Positions 10,016-26,300 of a stretch of DNA of 64,000 nt are shown piece by piece. The notes beneath the pieces were generated by a model. The model did not search any database and was not told the origin of the DNA. It saw only the letters and a list, made by a program, of their open reading frames with translations. Every line of letters starts with the position of its first letter. The stretch's first letter is position 1. This DNA comes from Mesaphorura yosii (lineage: Eukaryota; Arthropoda; Collembola; Poduromorpha; Tullbergiidae), in NCBI GenBank assembly GCA_009869945.1, contig WIXG01000100.1, forward strand, positions 1-64,000, read 5' to 3'. The translations under genes were made by a program, and so were the position numbers.

Positions 10016-13000
10016 ATGAGTAATAACAATAATTTATTAACTGTTGAAAGACTTTCGTCCACGTCGGCGAGCACAAGTCCGTCGCCGTCCTCGAGTCGCT
10101 TCTTGTCTCCAAATCGGATTCCATCGCTTTCCATTTCACCAGACCCTTCGTCGGACACCGCGGCTGTTCTTTCCAACAATCCGTCGCCGAGGTCGCGGCC
10201 GCGGCTCTCCTTCGATGAGTCGTCGCTTCTGCGACAGCAAGAGGAAAAGCAGCGCAAGCTCGGTGTGTTTGTGACGACAGTGGACTTGGGTAACTTTGAA
10301 TCTCGAGGAAGCACAAGCAGCACCAGCAGTGTTTTTCTCAAGGAGCCCTGCACCAAGGCTGACAAGGCGGCGGCTGCAGCAAGTGAGAAAGCGGGGATCA
10401 GGAGACTAATTTCAGCACCTGGGAAGGAACCCTTCTTGGAGGCCTGCGCCATGAGCAAGCCCACTATTGCCACCATCAGTGGAATGTTGACTACTACCGA
10501 AAAACAAGACAATGGCGGTATGCGCACTGGAATCCTGAGAAGAGCCTCAACCCCTGGCGAATATTCCAACTCCGTGTTTCAAGAGCGTCCGAGCATACAC
10601 TCAAACAATTCACATCCCTCCCTACAAGAAGACATTTGCTCCGAAATTGTACGGTTGGACAATGTTTCCGACCCTCAAGACCCAGAAACATCTCTGGGAC
10701 ATGGAAAACATTGCTCTCAGCCTCCCAAAATGAGAAGAATCGTCCACGTTTTTCAGGTAAATCAAACAATCATGTGATTCCTTTTAACTTGACTTGCTAA
10801 TGTTTGAAATCGCGCTGATAATCCGTTGACAAGCATTTCCCTTATTTTCCCATTTCAGAATTTAAGACAATGGGCAAATAACAAAACTGCGCCAAAACCT
10901 CCGGATCGCCCCGATTCATTCTTGGAAAAATTTGTGGGAGGCAGAACAGGGAGTGGAAGTGAAGGCGATAGCCGTTCCGGGAGTCGCCCGGATCGCACTG
11001 ATTGGGAAAAACGCAAACAAAATCTGAAGCAATACATGATGTTTGACTCGTCGAGACCAAATCATTACCGAGTAACACTTTACTAATTTTTACGCATTAA
11101 TTAGTACTGACAACTCTCAATAAGATGATTTCTGCTGCTTTTGTATTGCAGTGGTTGTTCATGGTCTCTGTCACCGTTTTCTACAATCTTATCTTTGTGG
11201 TCGGGCGTGCAACTTTTTGGGAGATGCAGTACGCAATACCGGCAACGTGGTACCTGCTTGACTACTTGGCGGACACAATCTACCTGGTTGATTCGTTCGT
11301 GAGAGCTCACGAAGGTAAGTTTCAAGTTTGGGATTGCGGAATTGAAATCCCCCTCCAGCATGATTGTAACGATTTCGTTGCTTTCAGTTTATTTGGAAGA
11401 AGGCATGACAGTCAAGGATCTGACAAAGCTGAGAAATCACTACTTCGAATCCGTGCACTTTAAATTAGACATTCTGAGTCTACTACCAACCGATCTTGCG
11501 TACTTTGCCTTCACCACCGACTGCTACCACAGATTGCCATGTCCTGTCATTTGGCGCCTGAATCGACTGTTCCGAGTGACAAGAATGACTGAATTCTTCC
11601 AAAAGACCGAGTCCAGAACGAATTTCCCGAATGCATTTCGGATTGGCCGTGTCATATTTTACATTTTGATCATCATTCACTGGAATGCGTGTTTCTATTT
11701 CGGAATCAGCTACGCAATTGGATTTGGAACCGACAATTGGGTCTACAAAAACATTACCAATGGCGCTCTTGCTCATCAGTACATTTACAGGTTACAACTT
11801 GCAGACCATGCGAACCTTCGACGAGTAATTAATTAGTATGATTCCACATCTACAGTTTTTATTGGTCAACGCTGACTCTGACAACAATTGGCGAAACTCC
11901 GCAGCCAGAAAAAGACATAGAGTTCATTTTTGTCGTGGCCGACTTTTTGGTTGGTGTGCTCATCTTTGCCACAATCGTCGGTAACATCGGCAGCATGATT
12001 ACGCACATGAATGCGGCACGTGCAGAGTTTCAAGAGCGCATGGACTCGATAAAGCAGTACATGGAATTCAGAAAGGTTTCAAAGGATCTGGAGAAACGCG
12101 TGATCAAATGGTTCGACTATTTGTGGAGCAACAAGCAATCACTGGACGAAAATAAGGTTCGCCTTTTGTATCCATAGGCAGTGACTTCATTTTTGTTTGG
12201 AGTTAATGCATACTGCCAGTCTCCATCTCCACAGGTGTTGAGCGCTCTTCCGGACAAACTGAAGGCTGAAATTGCGATTCATGTTCACTTGGGTACCTTG
12301 AAACAAGTTCGGGTTTTCCAAGACTGTGAAGCTGGTCTTCTAACAGAATTAGTGCTAAAATTAAAACTACAGGTAAAATGCAAAAGATCATGGGATTCTG
12401 AGGACACATCATTAAAGGCATTAAAGAGATTTGGACTGATGTGGCGCAGGTCTTCAGTCCAGGTGACTACATTTGTCGTAAAGGGGACGTGGGGCGAGAA
12501 ATGTACATTGTTAAGCGCGGGAAAGTCAGCGTCGTCGGGGATGACGGGAAGACGGTGTTTGCGACTCTTGGAGGCGGATGCGTATTCGGAGAAGTAATTT
12601 GTAACAAAGCAAAGCCACGGCCAATAGGTTTCTTTGTCGTAGCATTGCATTAATTCTTGTGTGTATTACTTTAGGTCAGCATTTTGAATATTGCTGGGAA
12701 TAAAACCGGGAACCGACGAACGGCGAACGTGCGCAGTTTGGGATATTCAGACTTGTTTTGCTTGTCAAAGGATGACTTGTGGGATGCTCTCCAGGTCTGT
12801 CTGCCTTTAGTAAAGGTCGAACAATGGGCAGCACGGCACCCTAACGGCTTTCGTATATTCTCTAACAGGAGTACCCAGAAGCAAGAGAAATCTTACTAGA
12901 GCGAGGAAAGCAATTGTTGCAGAAAGATGGATTGATTGATGAAGAAGCTCTTGAACGGGAAAAGCAGGCCAGAATGTCCGCCGCAGAGAAAATTGAGAAA

Positions 13001-13746: not shown

Positions 13747-13752
13747 TTTATT
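13747..13752 (-). terminator. Poly(A) signal of the pacifastin-WAP gene
   Basis: AATAAA on the minus strand, about 26 nt after the TAA stop at 13780-13778. Confidence 0.6.
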
Positions 13753-13777: not shown

Positions 13778-14295
13778 TTAATTGTTGGCGTACTTGGAAT
13801 AAACTGCTTGTCTACACGTGTTTTTTCCGCAGCCGTCGACGCAGCACTTCTTTGCGCCAGGACAATCTTTGTCTACTGTGCACATGCTTTGGTTGTTCCT
13901 CTTCGCGCAGTCCTCCGTGCCCGGGACGAGCGTTGGGCAGTCACCGGGTCTCACGCCAGTGGATGCTGTTAAAGAATTTCAAGCTCAGTGTCTTTAAACA
14001 ATTTTGACCACTTGCAATTGGCATTTCTAACAACGTACGTGCTGAAGTTGGCGGCTGTCTGCTGCAATCAACTTGACCACAAACGTCTTTTCCATTGGCG
14101 GCACACGTGCAAGTGTTGCAGTCCTTCTTGTAGGTGGTTCCTGGAGTGCAGTTCTCTGTAGGAGAAATCAAAAAGATACTCCAGTTTAGGAATTCTTATT
14201 CTTTTACTCTCCTTGCACTTACTTGGCCTGGTCGAAGTCTCCGCTGCCAAAACCACGACGAATAGGCACGCACTTAAAATGAGAATTTTATACAT
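13778..14295 (-). CDS. Secreted two-domain protease inhibitor: pacifastin domain plus WAP domain
   Basis: Three exons, 14295-14223, 14155-14039 and 13965-13778, give 125 aa. Exon 1 encodes a signal peptide (MYKILILSACLFVVVLAA). Exon 2 encodes one pacifastin light-chain-type domain, C27-x9-C37-N-x-C40-x-C42-x7-C50-x4-C55, which fits the family pattern including the CNTCTC core. Exon 3 encodes an eight-cysteine WAP (four-disulfide core) domain: C73-P, C83, C92, C98-PG, C104-C105, C109, C114, ending in a short basic/aromatic tail. Both introns are phase 1, so each exon is a transferable domain module. Pacifastin domains inhibit serine proteases in arthropod haemolymph; WAP domains occur in protease inhibitors and antimicrobial crustins. 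By alignment with locust pacifastin peptides the P1 position falls on Gln52, so target specificity is unclear. The gene is tail-to-tail with the CNG channel. The domain calls are strong; the biological role is inference. Confidence 0.92.
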
Positions 14296-16029
14296 TCTAG
14301 AGTTTGAGTAATTATAAAATTCGCAATTGGAATTTAAAATAAAATGCTCGAAAGTGGTTGATGTCGGCTAGACACACTTCAGCTCTTAATTCAGGTGAGA
14401 GCGATTCAGCCACCCTGCATTTATACCATTTTTTGCATTGACGTTTGTGTGTTCGAGGTAGTTTCTGCGTTTAATGGTGGCATTACGCCAGAGCATTTCA
14501 GATATAACAAAGCAACAATAACATTGTTGTGTGCTGTACAACTAAAACTACCCGTAGCTTTTGTTTCTGACGGCGATGCTTTGCTTCCAGCCAACGCGAG
14601 TTAGCCCGTATTTCAGCTTCAACATTGGCGAGTCATTTCATTGCATCAACGTGTCATAGCGCTAATTAACCGTGAACTCATTTTCTAATTACATCTTATA
14701 TTTTCCAAGGAAGATTGTCCACGATTATGAAATTGCTCATTAAGCTCGAGAATGATAGAGGAAATGTCATCCGTAGAGCCTAAGCAAAATGTCAGCTAAG
14801 CCATGGCTTCTCCAAGTACTCACAGTAATCAGCAATAACTCATTCAACACATCACACATGCATGAAGGGTTTACATTCTCAAGTTTCAAGAATGGCGACA
14901 ATTTCGGACGTGTGCGACATGCAAAGTCAAGTGAAATGAAAAATGCATACCATCATTAAGGCTTGCATTTGGCAGTGAGGTCTCCCACATTGACAAAAAT
15001 CTCCTTCAAAACACAATAAAAAGGAACATAATTTTAGTTTGGAATCAGCCTACAGCGAGTGCCTCCTGGCCTCCCTGGAGGACAAGAGCACTATTGTACC
15101 TGGTCTGCAATTTTTTGCAATCATTCTCATCCTTGACGAATGGCCAAAAAAATTCAATACGATCTACAATCTCATAAACCTAAAATTGAGTTACTACTGA
15201 CTTAGTCAACGTACCCACTGCGCTGGACCGTGAAATTCTCTGTTCTTTACAGAGTGCAAAGCCAGATTCCTGTTCACAAGCCTTTGATGATGATTCCCTG
15301 AGCGCTTCACGCATAAGCACTCCTTAATTACCCCTTGGAATCGCGAGATCATGCAACCATGAAGGAATAGGCAAACGCCGAACGCTTTAATGACATCAGT
15401 CCAGTCCAGCGAATAATTTCCCTCATTACGCCGAACTCGCCGTGATGCACTGTGGAATACCTCTGCTGGTGCTCTAATTCTGAAACAATTGATTTAATTA
15501 AGCTAGAGAATAGAAATCGAAATCGAAAATAATGAATACTGTTCAATGAATTCATGCGAGTACAAGCACGAACAAGGAGTAATTTTAGAAAGCCATTTCC
15601 CATTTGCCAAATAGATTACTCGACCCATATTTAGCGTTATCTGGTAAATTGCATAATACCACGAAGTGCGGTTCACATTTGAAGGAAGTTGGGAACGGAT
15701 TCAATGATTGGTGATTTAATCCTGTATACCAAAATTATCTGCCAAATTTTTTCTGCGAATTTCTTCCTTGCACACGTGCAATTTAAAACTTCGCCTTGAG
15801 CTTGTTTTTCTCGGAAGGACAAAGCAGGCGGTCGCTAAAAGTGAAATCTGTGCTGCTGATTTTGCCCACATGTTTACGTCAACGGAAACGGAAGTCTCGA
15901 AACACAAGATCAATCTAGATGAATGAGTGGATAAAAATTGGATGATCATGAGCAAATCCATGTCGATACTTTAGCGAGCGACTCGTTTTTCTTTCGACTT
16001 TGTGAAGTGTAGCCCTCATAAAGGATATC
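14296..16029. other. Intergenic region between two divergent secreted Cys-rich genes
   Basis: The pacifastin-WAP gene leaves leftward and the WAP gene rightward, so both promoters should lie here. A TTATAA-type AT-rich element sits about 20-25 nt upstream of the minus-strand ATG. An 81-codon minus-strand frame (15961-15716) has no recognisable features and is not called. Confidence 0.5.
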
Positions 16030-16406
16030 ATGAACATCTTCAAGTCATTTCTGCTTCTGGTCTCAATGGTTTTCTTGTTCGATTCGGTTTCAGGGTCTTG
16101 CGGTTATGATTCACCTGGAGCAAGCTCTGGTAATTCTAAAAGTTTAACCTCGTTTAATTCTAATCCATGGGTTTCTCAATCGCTTTCATTCAATATTGCG
16201 TAGCTGTGGCGACCAGACTGCGTGCATGTCCCTACGAGTCAGCTGGCTTGGAAGTGACCAGAGGACTGGCTGGACATTGCCCTGTTGGAGACGAGGTTTT
16301 TGGCAACTGTATTGCGGACGAGGACTGTTTCCGCCAAAAGTTGGGAAACGTTTGCTGCTACGACAGATGTGGTGGAAAGACGCAATGCCATCGTTTCCCT
16401 AAATAA
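16030..16406 (+). CDS. Small secreted WAP-type (four-disulfide core-like) protein
   Basis: Exons 16030-16129 and 16204-16406 give exactly 100 aa. Exon 1 encodes a signal peptide (MNIFKSFLLLVSMVFLFDSV, cleavage likely after VSG) plus a short linker. The intron is phase 1, as in the neighbouring pacifastin-WAP gene. Exon 2 carries eight cysteines in WAP order: C42-P, C59, C69, C75, C84-C85, C89, C95. The diagnostic block is CIADEDC...VCCYDRC. The C1-C2 gap (16 residues) and C4-C5 gap (8) are longer than usual, so it is a divergent WAP. A ninth cysteine (C24) precedes the domain and has no obvious partner. An AATAAA overlaps the stop codon and another lies at 16439. Likely a haemolymph protease inhibitor or crustin-like antimicrobial peptide; function is inferred from the fold only. 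Confidence 0.87.
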
Positions 16407-22960: not shown

Positions 22961-23316
22961 ACACGAAACACCATAAAATTATGTTGACTTTGACAAAATG
23001 TCTAAAATTTCTTCTTTTTCATTGTTCATTTTCTTCTTTTCAGGCCTGCCATCCACAGTTTCACCTTAGCTGTATTGAAAATCTTCTGTGGACACGTACA
23101 CGCCTTCAGTTAATGGTGCAGAGCGTCGAGGAGTCCAGGAATTAGTTGGTGGTGTGCTATTTGTTTCATTTCACGCACGCGAGTGGCCAAATTGTGGACG
23201 AAGTCTATTCTGAGATGCGCTCAAATTAATAAGTGAGTTCCGATCTTCATGACTGAATAAACTTAGTTTGTCAACCAACTTTTGGTTTGACCAGTTAAAG
23301 GCGCCAGACAACCAGG
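22961..23316 (+). other. 5' flank / 5' UTR exon of the RhoGAP gene
   Basis: A strong acceptor (pyrimidine tract ending TTTTCAG at 23043) lies about 270 nt upstream of the RhoGAP ATG. This suggests the start codon is in the second or a later transcript exon. No upstream plus-strand ATG frame joins the coding sequence. Confidence 0.4.
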
Positions 23317-26300
23317 ATGGAGAAGCTTGAAAGGCCTATTCCAGCTCCACGTCGAACAGTCGGTCACTCGTCCGCTGACCCGTCCGACAATTGTAGCAGT
23401 GCTTTCACTCAACTAAATACCAATGTTGTGCCTCACCGCCCAAAAAACGGAACCACCGCCGAACCTCCAAAGCCCAAACCCAAGCCAAGAAACTTAATTA
23501 AAAGACTGGGATCTGCGACTGAGAAGAGAAAATCCAGGAAGAGCGATAAGGATGTGCCATTAAGTTTGGAAAATGAAAACTACGACGAGGAAGAACTGAC
23601 GGACGACGCGAAAAGAGGAACAATCAACTTGTTTAAAGTTCGGCGCAGCAGCGATCCGTTCGACATTGAATTCGAAAGGAGTTTGACCGACGCGGAACTT
23701 TTGTCAAATGTCACCTTCAATTCACCGTTAGAAGATTTGCCACCGGAATCGCGGGCGTCCCTCGCCTACTCAATCGTGAGCTCGTCCAACAGCAACAGTA
23801 CAGATGACTACTACGTCGAACCACCGTCCTCCAAGTCCTCGTCGACACCTGCTAGCAAGCACACTAGTCTCACGAGTACCTCCTTCCCACCTGTGCCGAA
23901 TCAAAATGTACAGTTCAACTTGTGTGGTGAAACCAACAACTCCTACATGGACACGGAAGGAAGTGAGTCGATCTACGAACCGATATCGTCCTACTCCTCG
24001 TCTTCATCCACGTCTGGATCCGCCATGCATGATTTCTTTTCGCTGCCAATCACGGCGAATAACAATGGACCACATCCCGCAGCCCTCGCCAAGCGAAGTA
24101 CGGTGCCAATCGTCGGAGCCAACGGCCATGCGACTGAACTCAAGGCAAATTCTATTGCGTTGACTTCCAAATGTCGCTATCAGCGATTCCAGGATGAACA
24201 AACTGACTCACGGTCGTCCAGCGTGGTTGGTCTGAACGACAACACACAAAAACAAGAAACTGAATCTGAAGGAACAAATCTGCGCAGAAATCCATCAAAT
24301 GCGAGCGCCAAGAGTGATAAGAGGAAATTCGAATCGCACGAGTACGACGATGTCGCCATGGAGAATGGGAATGTTGTCTTTCTGGACAACTTGGCGAACA
24401 CAGTTACGAAACCCACGGGAACAAGTTCAAATAACACCAACTCAAGCTCAAGTATTGCTTCGAGGAATTCAGTTGTGATGGAATTTGATCCACTGTTTGA
24501 ACCTACAACCAACGCGAAACGTGCTGAAACCGTCCAGGTTGATTCCCAGCCCCAGCGCGATCCGCCCCCACCACCACATCGCTATCCAGTTGCTGAGGGT
24601 GAGGACCGTCACGATGGGAAGAAGGGTCAAGAATCTCGATTAGTGGCACTGACTCCAACCCCGTCTTCGAATTCGAATTCAGACTACATCCCCTTGAGCG
24701 AGGCGGAGAGTGCTCAAAAGATTGACTCAAAACTAGGGGAGCCGGAAGAAGAGCTTGAGCCAATTGCTCCAGTCGCTGATCTCCCCACCAACTCAAAGTT
24801 CCGGAAATCTCAAAGCCCAAAGAAGGGTGACCCAAAGGATCAAGAATCCGGCGAAACTGGAAAGGAAGTTGCAGTTAGTTCGAGCCAGGGCAGTTTCCTT
24901 AGACGACTGAGCCATAAAATAAGACTTGGACCCATTCGAGAAGAAATGTCGAAGAGCCTTCCTGGCAATGCAATTCCGGTGGGCCCTGTTGTAGTGCCGT
25001 GCAACAAATGCTTTGATCAACACGCAGAAGGCACAAAATGCAAGTTCACGCCCGTGCCAAAGTCAGAGGTTGTGTACTCATCCAACTTGTACAAGCCGTC
25101 AGGGATCAAGAAGGAGTTTACGAAAAGATTCGTGTTTTTATCACACGGAAAGCTTTCGTTTCAAAACGAGAAAACGGTGGTCACAGATGAGGTGCCGCTG
25201 GATAAAATTGGAGTCATGTACAGAAGGGACGATATAAAGGCTGTCGTCAGTCAGCAAGAACTTCATTGCTTTGCCCTTTGCTTTGTGACTGGAAAGCCAG
25301 CAAACCTCTCGCTTGGAGCTGGAACCGAGACAGAACGATGTCTGTGGATGCAAAAGTACATTGAAACATTTTCATCGGGATTTCCTGCCACGGTGATCAG
25401 TTCCTATGATCGTGGAGGCTGGTGTTTCATTAAGGTAAGAGGAAAGATATTCGAAATTCTGTCAGACTCTTTTAAACCTCTGTCATTTTGCATTTCAGGA
25501 GGGGTTGACCAGCAACTGGACTCCAAGTTGGTTTGTCCTGAAAGAAAGGGTCCTATTTTATTCTCCCGCTAAAGGCGACAAGTATTTGGAAATGGATTTG
25601 AGAAAGGCTCGCGCTATCTGTAAGTTTCGTTTTAAGATAGAACTGCTCAGTAACTCTAAATTCTTGTCAACAATGTCGTACTTCTGTTTCCAGCGTTAAA
25701 TACAAAAGATGGCGACCACATGTGTCCATTCGTGGACAATTCTGATGTTCTCACCATTGATATGAGCTACAAGATATTTTACGTGCAGACCGAGAGTGGC
25801 AAACTGACTTCCAGCTGGGCAAAAGCTATTCAAGAGGCAGCTAGACAAAATGGCCCCAACTTTGAACAAATGCAACTCACACTGGACAACGTTCCAGTAA
25901 TTGTGGACAAATGCATCGACTTCCTTTACGCTCATGGAACATTGGCGGAAGGAATTTATCGTCACAGCGGCTCCAATTCTCGCATTACGCAACTGTTGGC
26001 CGACTTTCAGAAAGATGCTTGGGCCGTTCAGCTTTCACCGAAAGGTACCACTTCTTCTCCAAGAAATAGTCTCTTGTGTGGTTTCCCGTGCTGCCCTTTA
26101 ATTAATTTACGGAAATTTTATGTTTTGCAGAATTTTCTGCCCATGATGTTGCCGGAACGCTGAAGCGTTTCTTCCGCACTCTTCCCGAGCCTCTTGTAAC
26201 TGCAAAATTGTATGAAGACTGGATCCAAGCATCAGGTATGTAATTTAGCAGTGATTTAAGGAAGTCATCCCGTATCAAACTGAATTGCTCGCGTAGGGAT

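Follow-up and report, generated by a model that had tools for sequence, protein, structure and literature searches.

A short-loop pacifastin domain joined to a WAP domain in a candidate two-domain inhibitor gene of the collembolan Mesaphorura yosii

Pacifastin domains have been divided by the length of the loop between their first and second cysteines, which spans 9–12 residues in the Conventional class and 13–20 residues in the Ancestral class (PMC13388995, a survey of 2026). Section 10 of that survey reports that 100% of 155 Conventional proteins carry pacifastin domains only (the same section also uses the words "almost exclusively"), and the legend to its Fig. 7 names WAP in the co-occurrence network of the Ancestral pacifastins. 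The published picture is one in which Conventional domains are solitary and are freed through cleavage of their linkers; cleavable linkers have been proposed for pacifastin precursors (PMC13388995). Here we describe a predicted gene in the genome of Mesaphorura yosii (assembly GCA_009869945.1), located within positions 1 to 64,000 of contig WIXG01000100.1; this whole 64,000-nucleotide stretch is referred to below as the window. The gene model comprises three exons, runs along the minus strand from 14295 to 13778, and encodes a predicted protein of 125 amino acids in which a signal peptide is followed by a Pacifastin_I domain and a WAP domain. Judged from the sequence, the pacifastin and WAP parts both appear ordinary, and it is their pairing that seems unusual for a short-loop pacifastin.

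Exon 1 (14223–14295; 73 nt; minus strand, as are all parts of the gene) carries the initiating ATG together with a hydrophobic putative signal peptide (MYKILILSACLFVVVLAA-ETSTRP; the signal peptide and its cleavage site were judged by eye) and ends in a phase 1 donor. Intron 1 (14156–14222; 67 nt; GTAAGT...CTACAG) and intron 2 (13966–14038; 73 nt; GTACGT...TAACAG) are both GT–AG introns in phase 1. Between them lies exon 2 (14039–14155; 117 nt), which encodes the pacifastin domain, with six cysteines spaced by gaps of 9-2-1-7-4, and part of the linker. Exon 3 (13778–13965; 188 nt including the TAA stop codon) encodes the remainder of the linker and the WAP domain, with eight cysteines spaced by gaps of 9-8-5-5-0-3-4. 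The joined coding length is 378 nt, or 125 codons and a stop. The initial annotation of this DNA had already proposed the correspondence between exons and domains, the coordinates, and the two phase 1 junctions, all of which were borne out; the strand is added here.

The Pfam search that the initial annotation had suggested for the 125-residue protein places both domains above their curated cut-offs: Pacifastin_I (PF05375) scores 41.6 bits against a cut-off of 27.9 (E = 1e-10), and WAP (PF00095) 36.8 bits against 20.8 (E = 4.9e-9). A six-frame scan of the genome recovers the same stretches (E = 7.4e-9 for pacifastin and 7.3e-7 for WAP). Under a rough random placement of the 8 pacifastin and 18 WAP matches listed over 93.0 Mb, the number of same-strand pacifastin–WAP pairs within 500 bp expected by chance is about 0.0008. 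Codon usage, scored after training on two other open reading frames of the window, places the frame of the gene model at the top of the six for exons 2 and 3, and next to the top for exon 1. We regard the predicted pacifastin–WAP gene model as sound.

An alternative is that the locus yields two separate transcripts, one carrying the signal peptide and pacifastin domain and ending in a retained intron 2, with the WAP exon belonging elsewhere. Retention of intron 2 does leave the frame open to a stop at 13941, for a product of 95 residues; yet the pacifastin domain is the only Pfam domain above cut-off in this read-through frame, and the phases of the exons match exactly. The donor at the end of exon 2 agrees in phase with the WAP exon, which lies 73 nt away. 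Exon 3, moreover, contains no ATG in frame before the WAP domain, and does not bring its own start codon or signal peptide; it must therefore be spliced to an upstream exon, and a separate WAP gene is unlikely. We consider the two-transcript arrangement very improbable. A different division of the same gene could arise by alternative splicing, with the full two-headed protein accompanied by a single-WAP protein of 86 residues. Exon 2 is symmetric, with phase 1 introns on both flanks of its 117 nt, so that skipping it would preserve the frame; such symmetry does not, by itself, demonstrate skipping, and we would expect the shorter product only with low probability.

The pacifastin domain, CTPGTTYKKDCNTCTCAANGKDVCGQVDC, shares with the Conventional arthropod pacifastins (MEROPS I19; SGTI/SGCI, PMP-C) the six-cysteine framework, an Asn after Cys2, and a Gly within the Cys4–Cys5 loop. 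Its Cys1–Cys2 loop of 9 residues, inside the Conventional range, makes the domain Conventional under the loop rule of PMC13388995, a class that is set by the loop, the pacifastin-only composition being a result of the survey that stands outside the class definition. The pacifastin half of the protein matches solved pacifastins (for example 7sao, E = 1.3e-5), and the ten highest-ranked entries for its model are pacifastin-family inhibitors. The domain departs from the Conventional pacifastins in its reactive loop. With P1–P1' defined as positions two and three past Cys5 (PMC13388995), the loop C50-G-Q-V-D-C55 (14064–14081) has a predicted P1–P1' of Q52–V53, with Gly at P2. Thr occupies P2 in all five of the other pacifastin domains of this genome that were compared (two on contig C35 and those on C185, C257, and C27, with C281 and C753 left out), and their P1 residues are K, K, L, A, and Y. 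The Gly-Gln-Val-Asp loop is atypical in sequence; Gln at P1 has precedent, as Gln-Lys is among the P1–P1' pairs given in PMC13388995. Lacking the usual Thr at P2 and carrying Gln at P1, the pacifastin head may act on an uncommon target or on no target at all. Set beside the Thr found at P2 in the other domains, this loop renders doubtful the earlier suggestion that the protein acts on two protease classes.

The WAP domain has the eight-cysteine pattern with a central CC, and shares the eight-cysteine, four-disulfide core with WAP inhibitors of the elafin/SLPI type (MEROPS I17); elafin is the best sequence match of the WAP half in the PDB (E = 7.1e-6). In the elafin alignment, the Cys-Ala of the WAP domain falls on the Cys-Ala of elafin, and the aligned Ala is one that we take to be the P1 residue of elafin. 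The loop is 8 residues long, as is that of elafin in this alignment, whereas the WAP domains compared from elsewhere in the genome, 8 of the 17 other listed matches, have loops of 3–7 residues. The window domain differs from the elafin/SLPI type in its Lys at P1', its longer Cys1–Cys2 segment, and its pacifastin partner. A single-sequence structure model of the WAP domain was poor (predicted local distance difference test score of 63.2). The linker between the two heads, SRQPPTSAPSTGVRPGD, is 17 residues long and rich in Pro, Ser, and Thr; no dibasic site (KR, RR, RK, and KK were checked) occurs within it, and the two heads therefore probably remain joined.

We favor, with a probability of roughly 0.6, a reading in which the gene encodes a secreted mixed-type inhibitor composed of a short-loop pacifastin domain and a WAP domain, the WAP domain being the likelier active head. 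The exons, the frame, and both cysteine frameworks are read directly from the DNA; from these we infer that the protein would be secreted, that each domain would fold with its customary disulfide pattern and remain linked to the other, and that they would be active as follows. The WAP head would offer a loop as long as that of elafin, carrying Ala at P1, to serine proteases of the elastase or subtilisin type, and the pacifastin head, through Gly-Gln-Val-Asp, would inhibit an atypical protease or else contribute binding or stability. By analogy alone, defence within the body fluid or at the surface would be the likeliest biological role. The atypical pacifastin loop, unlike those of the five other domains compared, is also consistent with a non-inhibitory structural or signalling protein for which both folds are simply stable disulfide scaffolds. 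The retention of elafin length and Ala in the WAP loop argues against such a protein, as does a Pfam scan of three frames in which nothing beyond these domains passed the cut-off, and we regard it as unlikely.

The composition of the protein raises a further possibility. Type I crustins share with it a signal peptide, a Cys-rich N-terminal part, a single C-terminal WAP domain, small size, and basic charge; the mature predicted protein is about 11 kDa, with 14 Cys, an isoelectric point of 8.55, and a net charge of +5. It might accordingly be a crustin-like antimicrobial peptide, with the "pacifastin" part serving as the Cys-rich region, that acts on bacteria and not on proteases. The shrimp crustin criteria of PMC10363340 require no fewer than 12 Cys and two CC pairs, together with a Cys-rich region 12–20 residues long, whereas the window protein has one CC pair, and Pfam identifies a complete pacifastin domain in its N-terminal part. 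We therefore give the crustin-like identity little weight.

The rarity of the pairing can be gauged across the 93-Mb genome. Pacifastin matches (at least 8) fall on seven contigs (two on C35, and one each on C100, C185, C753, C257, C27, and C281), and WAP matches (at least 18) on C4 and C253, with five each, and on C355, C241, C138, C100, C75, C966, C349, and C101. Among the matches listed, C100, which is the contig of the window, is the only one with both. A cysteine-pattern scan for pacifastin and WAP, covering the window and 15 loci of 7.5–9.9 kb each, found the two patterns together in the window and also on C355. The latter was rejected as a second pacifastin–WAP locus: its pacifastin-like pattern draws no match to Pacifastin_I and only one to VWC that is below threshold, and by eye the locus looks papilin-like, with Kunitz-type repeats, WAP, and Ig-like sequence. 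Two candidate pacifastins were likewise set aside, C281 because its score in the genome scan is under the cut-off, and C753 because RECK FnI outscores Pacifastin_I there (42.7 against 30.6 bits). In the same frame, a Kazal domain comes after the RECK FnI-like match at C753:17637–17735.

Other WAP loci show arrangements of their own. Three WAP domains occupy a single open frame at C4:409598–410086, unlike the single domain per exon of the window gene. At C253:18000–27900 are five WAP matches that perhaps all belong to a single large gene for a mixed-type inhibitor; one of them lies with Kunitz and thyroglobulin-1 domains in one open frame. The low-complexity proteins at C75:2234, C349:60478, and C101:153373, which are mutually similar, have short WAP-like ends (CPG[TN]QKCC). 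A Crust_neurohorm match is also present in the genome. A search for COX1 produced no match, and one for 7tm_6 produced none either, its control being equally negative.

The layout of one domain per exon with phase 1 junctions was considered as a remarkable feature and rejected as such, being usual in this genome. Among 19 further exons that match pacifastin or WAP and have a candidate acceptor, the nearest such acceptor is in phase 1 in 16 (phase 0 in one and phase 2 in two; binomial p = 7e-6 against one third). The candidate acceptors are predicted sites, taken from a simple custom score and tabulated by hand; domains in one shared open frame were counted as one, the RECK-like exon of C753 is among the 19, the acceptor for C281 lies 221 nt away, and the WAP exons at C253:20713 and C966:6373, with no acceptor above threshold, were left out of the count. 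Phase 1 domain exons that are usual in the genome provide a precondition for shuffling, and are no evidence of a shuffling event. A search of the genome with the whole protein returned its own gene and four further matches, all of them weak. The WAP half accounts for three (E = 0.005 for the best, at 41% identity, then 0.02 and 0.25), and the fourth is a stretch on C42 aligned to residues 8–94 of the query at 26% identity (E = 0.18), with three stops. No clear donor or paralogue emerged from this search. The initial annotation proposed a lineage-specific inhibitor assembled by exon shuffling; neither lineage specificity nor a particular shuffling event is shown by these results. Our literature search found no paper on crustin gene structure or on pacifastin exon phases.

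Proteins that combine inhibitor families are on record among arthropods, for example BmSPI56 (Kunitz/Antistasin/WAP) and PxSPI44 (WAP/Antistasin/Kunitz), and the window protein resembles them in holding more than one inhibitor family. It differs in its particular pair: the tables of three insect inhibitor surveys hold Kunitz/WAP and WAP/Antistasin/Kunitz mixes and no pacifastin/WAP, and the part covered of the table in a fourth insect survey likewise contains none. A survey of 14 arthropod species gives counts by family, and the pacifastin–WAP combination goes unnamed in the passages covered. The Ancestral pacifastins resemble the window protein in bringing pacifastin and WAP together in one protein, and differ from it in their loop of 13–20 residues, against 9 here (PMC13388995). 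The initial annotation knew of no described family with this architecture. In its broad form this does not hold, since pacifastin with WAP is published for long-loop domains (PMC13388995); it does hold for the short-loop pairing, for which no report was found in the open-licence papers searched.

Several features of the surrounding sequence were also recorded. On the minus strand, TATAAAT at 14419–14425, about 130 nt upstream of the ATG, is a possible TATA box, and AATAAA at 13747–13752, 25 nt past the stop codon, a possible polyadenylation signal; both are pattern matches only, at positions plausible for the predicted gene. Adjoining the gene, on the plus strand, are Ion_trans and cNMP_binding matches at 11303–12650, probably exons of a cyclic-nucleotide-gated channel. 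A divergently oriented small gene lies at 16030–16406 (plus strand), with a signal-peptide exon at about 16030–16129 and a second exon at about 16204–16406. The second exon encodes eight Cys in a WAP-like order, but Cys4 is separated from the CC pair by 8 residues; the exon has no Pfam match, and a genome search with its gene turned up nothing else at E ≤ 1. Open reading frames with PH and RhoGAP matches at 23299–26163 (plus strand) perhaps form one ARAP-like gene. The window scan recorded no tRNA and no Rfam match, and when the WAP exon was used in one scan of viral contigs, the 3 pattern matches that came up included no relative.

It is possible, though we hold this only tentatively, that a Conventional pacifastin was recruited into a stable WAP two-domain inhibitor, its altered loop reflecting a new target or a non-inhibitory role while the WAP domain keeps the inhibition. 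Such recruitment would run counter to the published picture of solitary domains freed by linker cleavage, and the dibasic-free linker differs from the cleavable linkers proposed in PMC13388995. With a short-loop pacifastin domain and a WAP domain in one gene model, against 155 of 155 pacifastin-only proteins in the survey, the window gene provides a concrete exception to the 2026 generalisation on Conventional pacifastins. The pairing opens no new kind of system; as an exception to a published rule, it offers a small protein for asking whether joining two inhibitor folds alters their targets.
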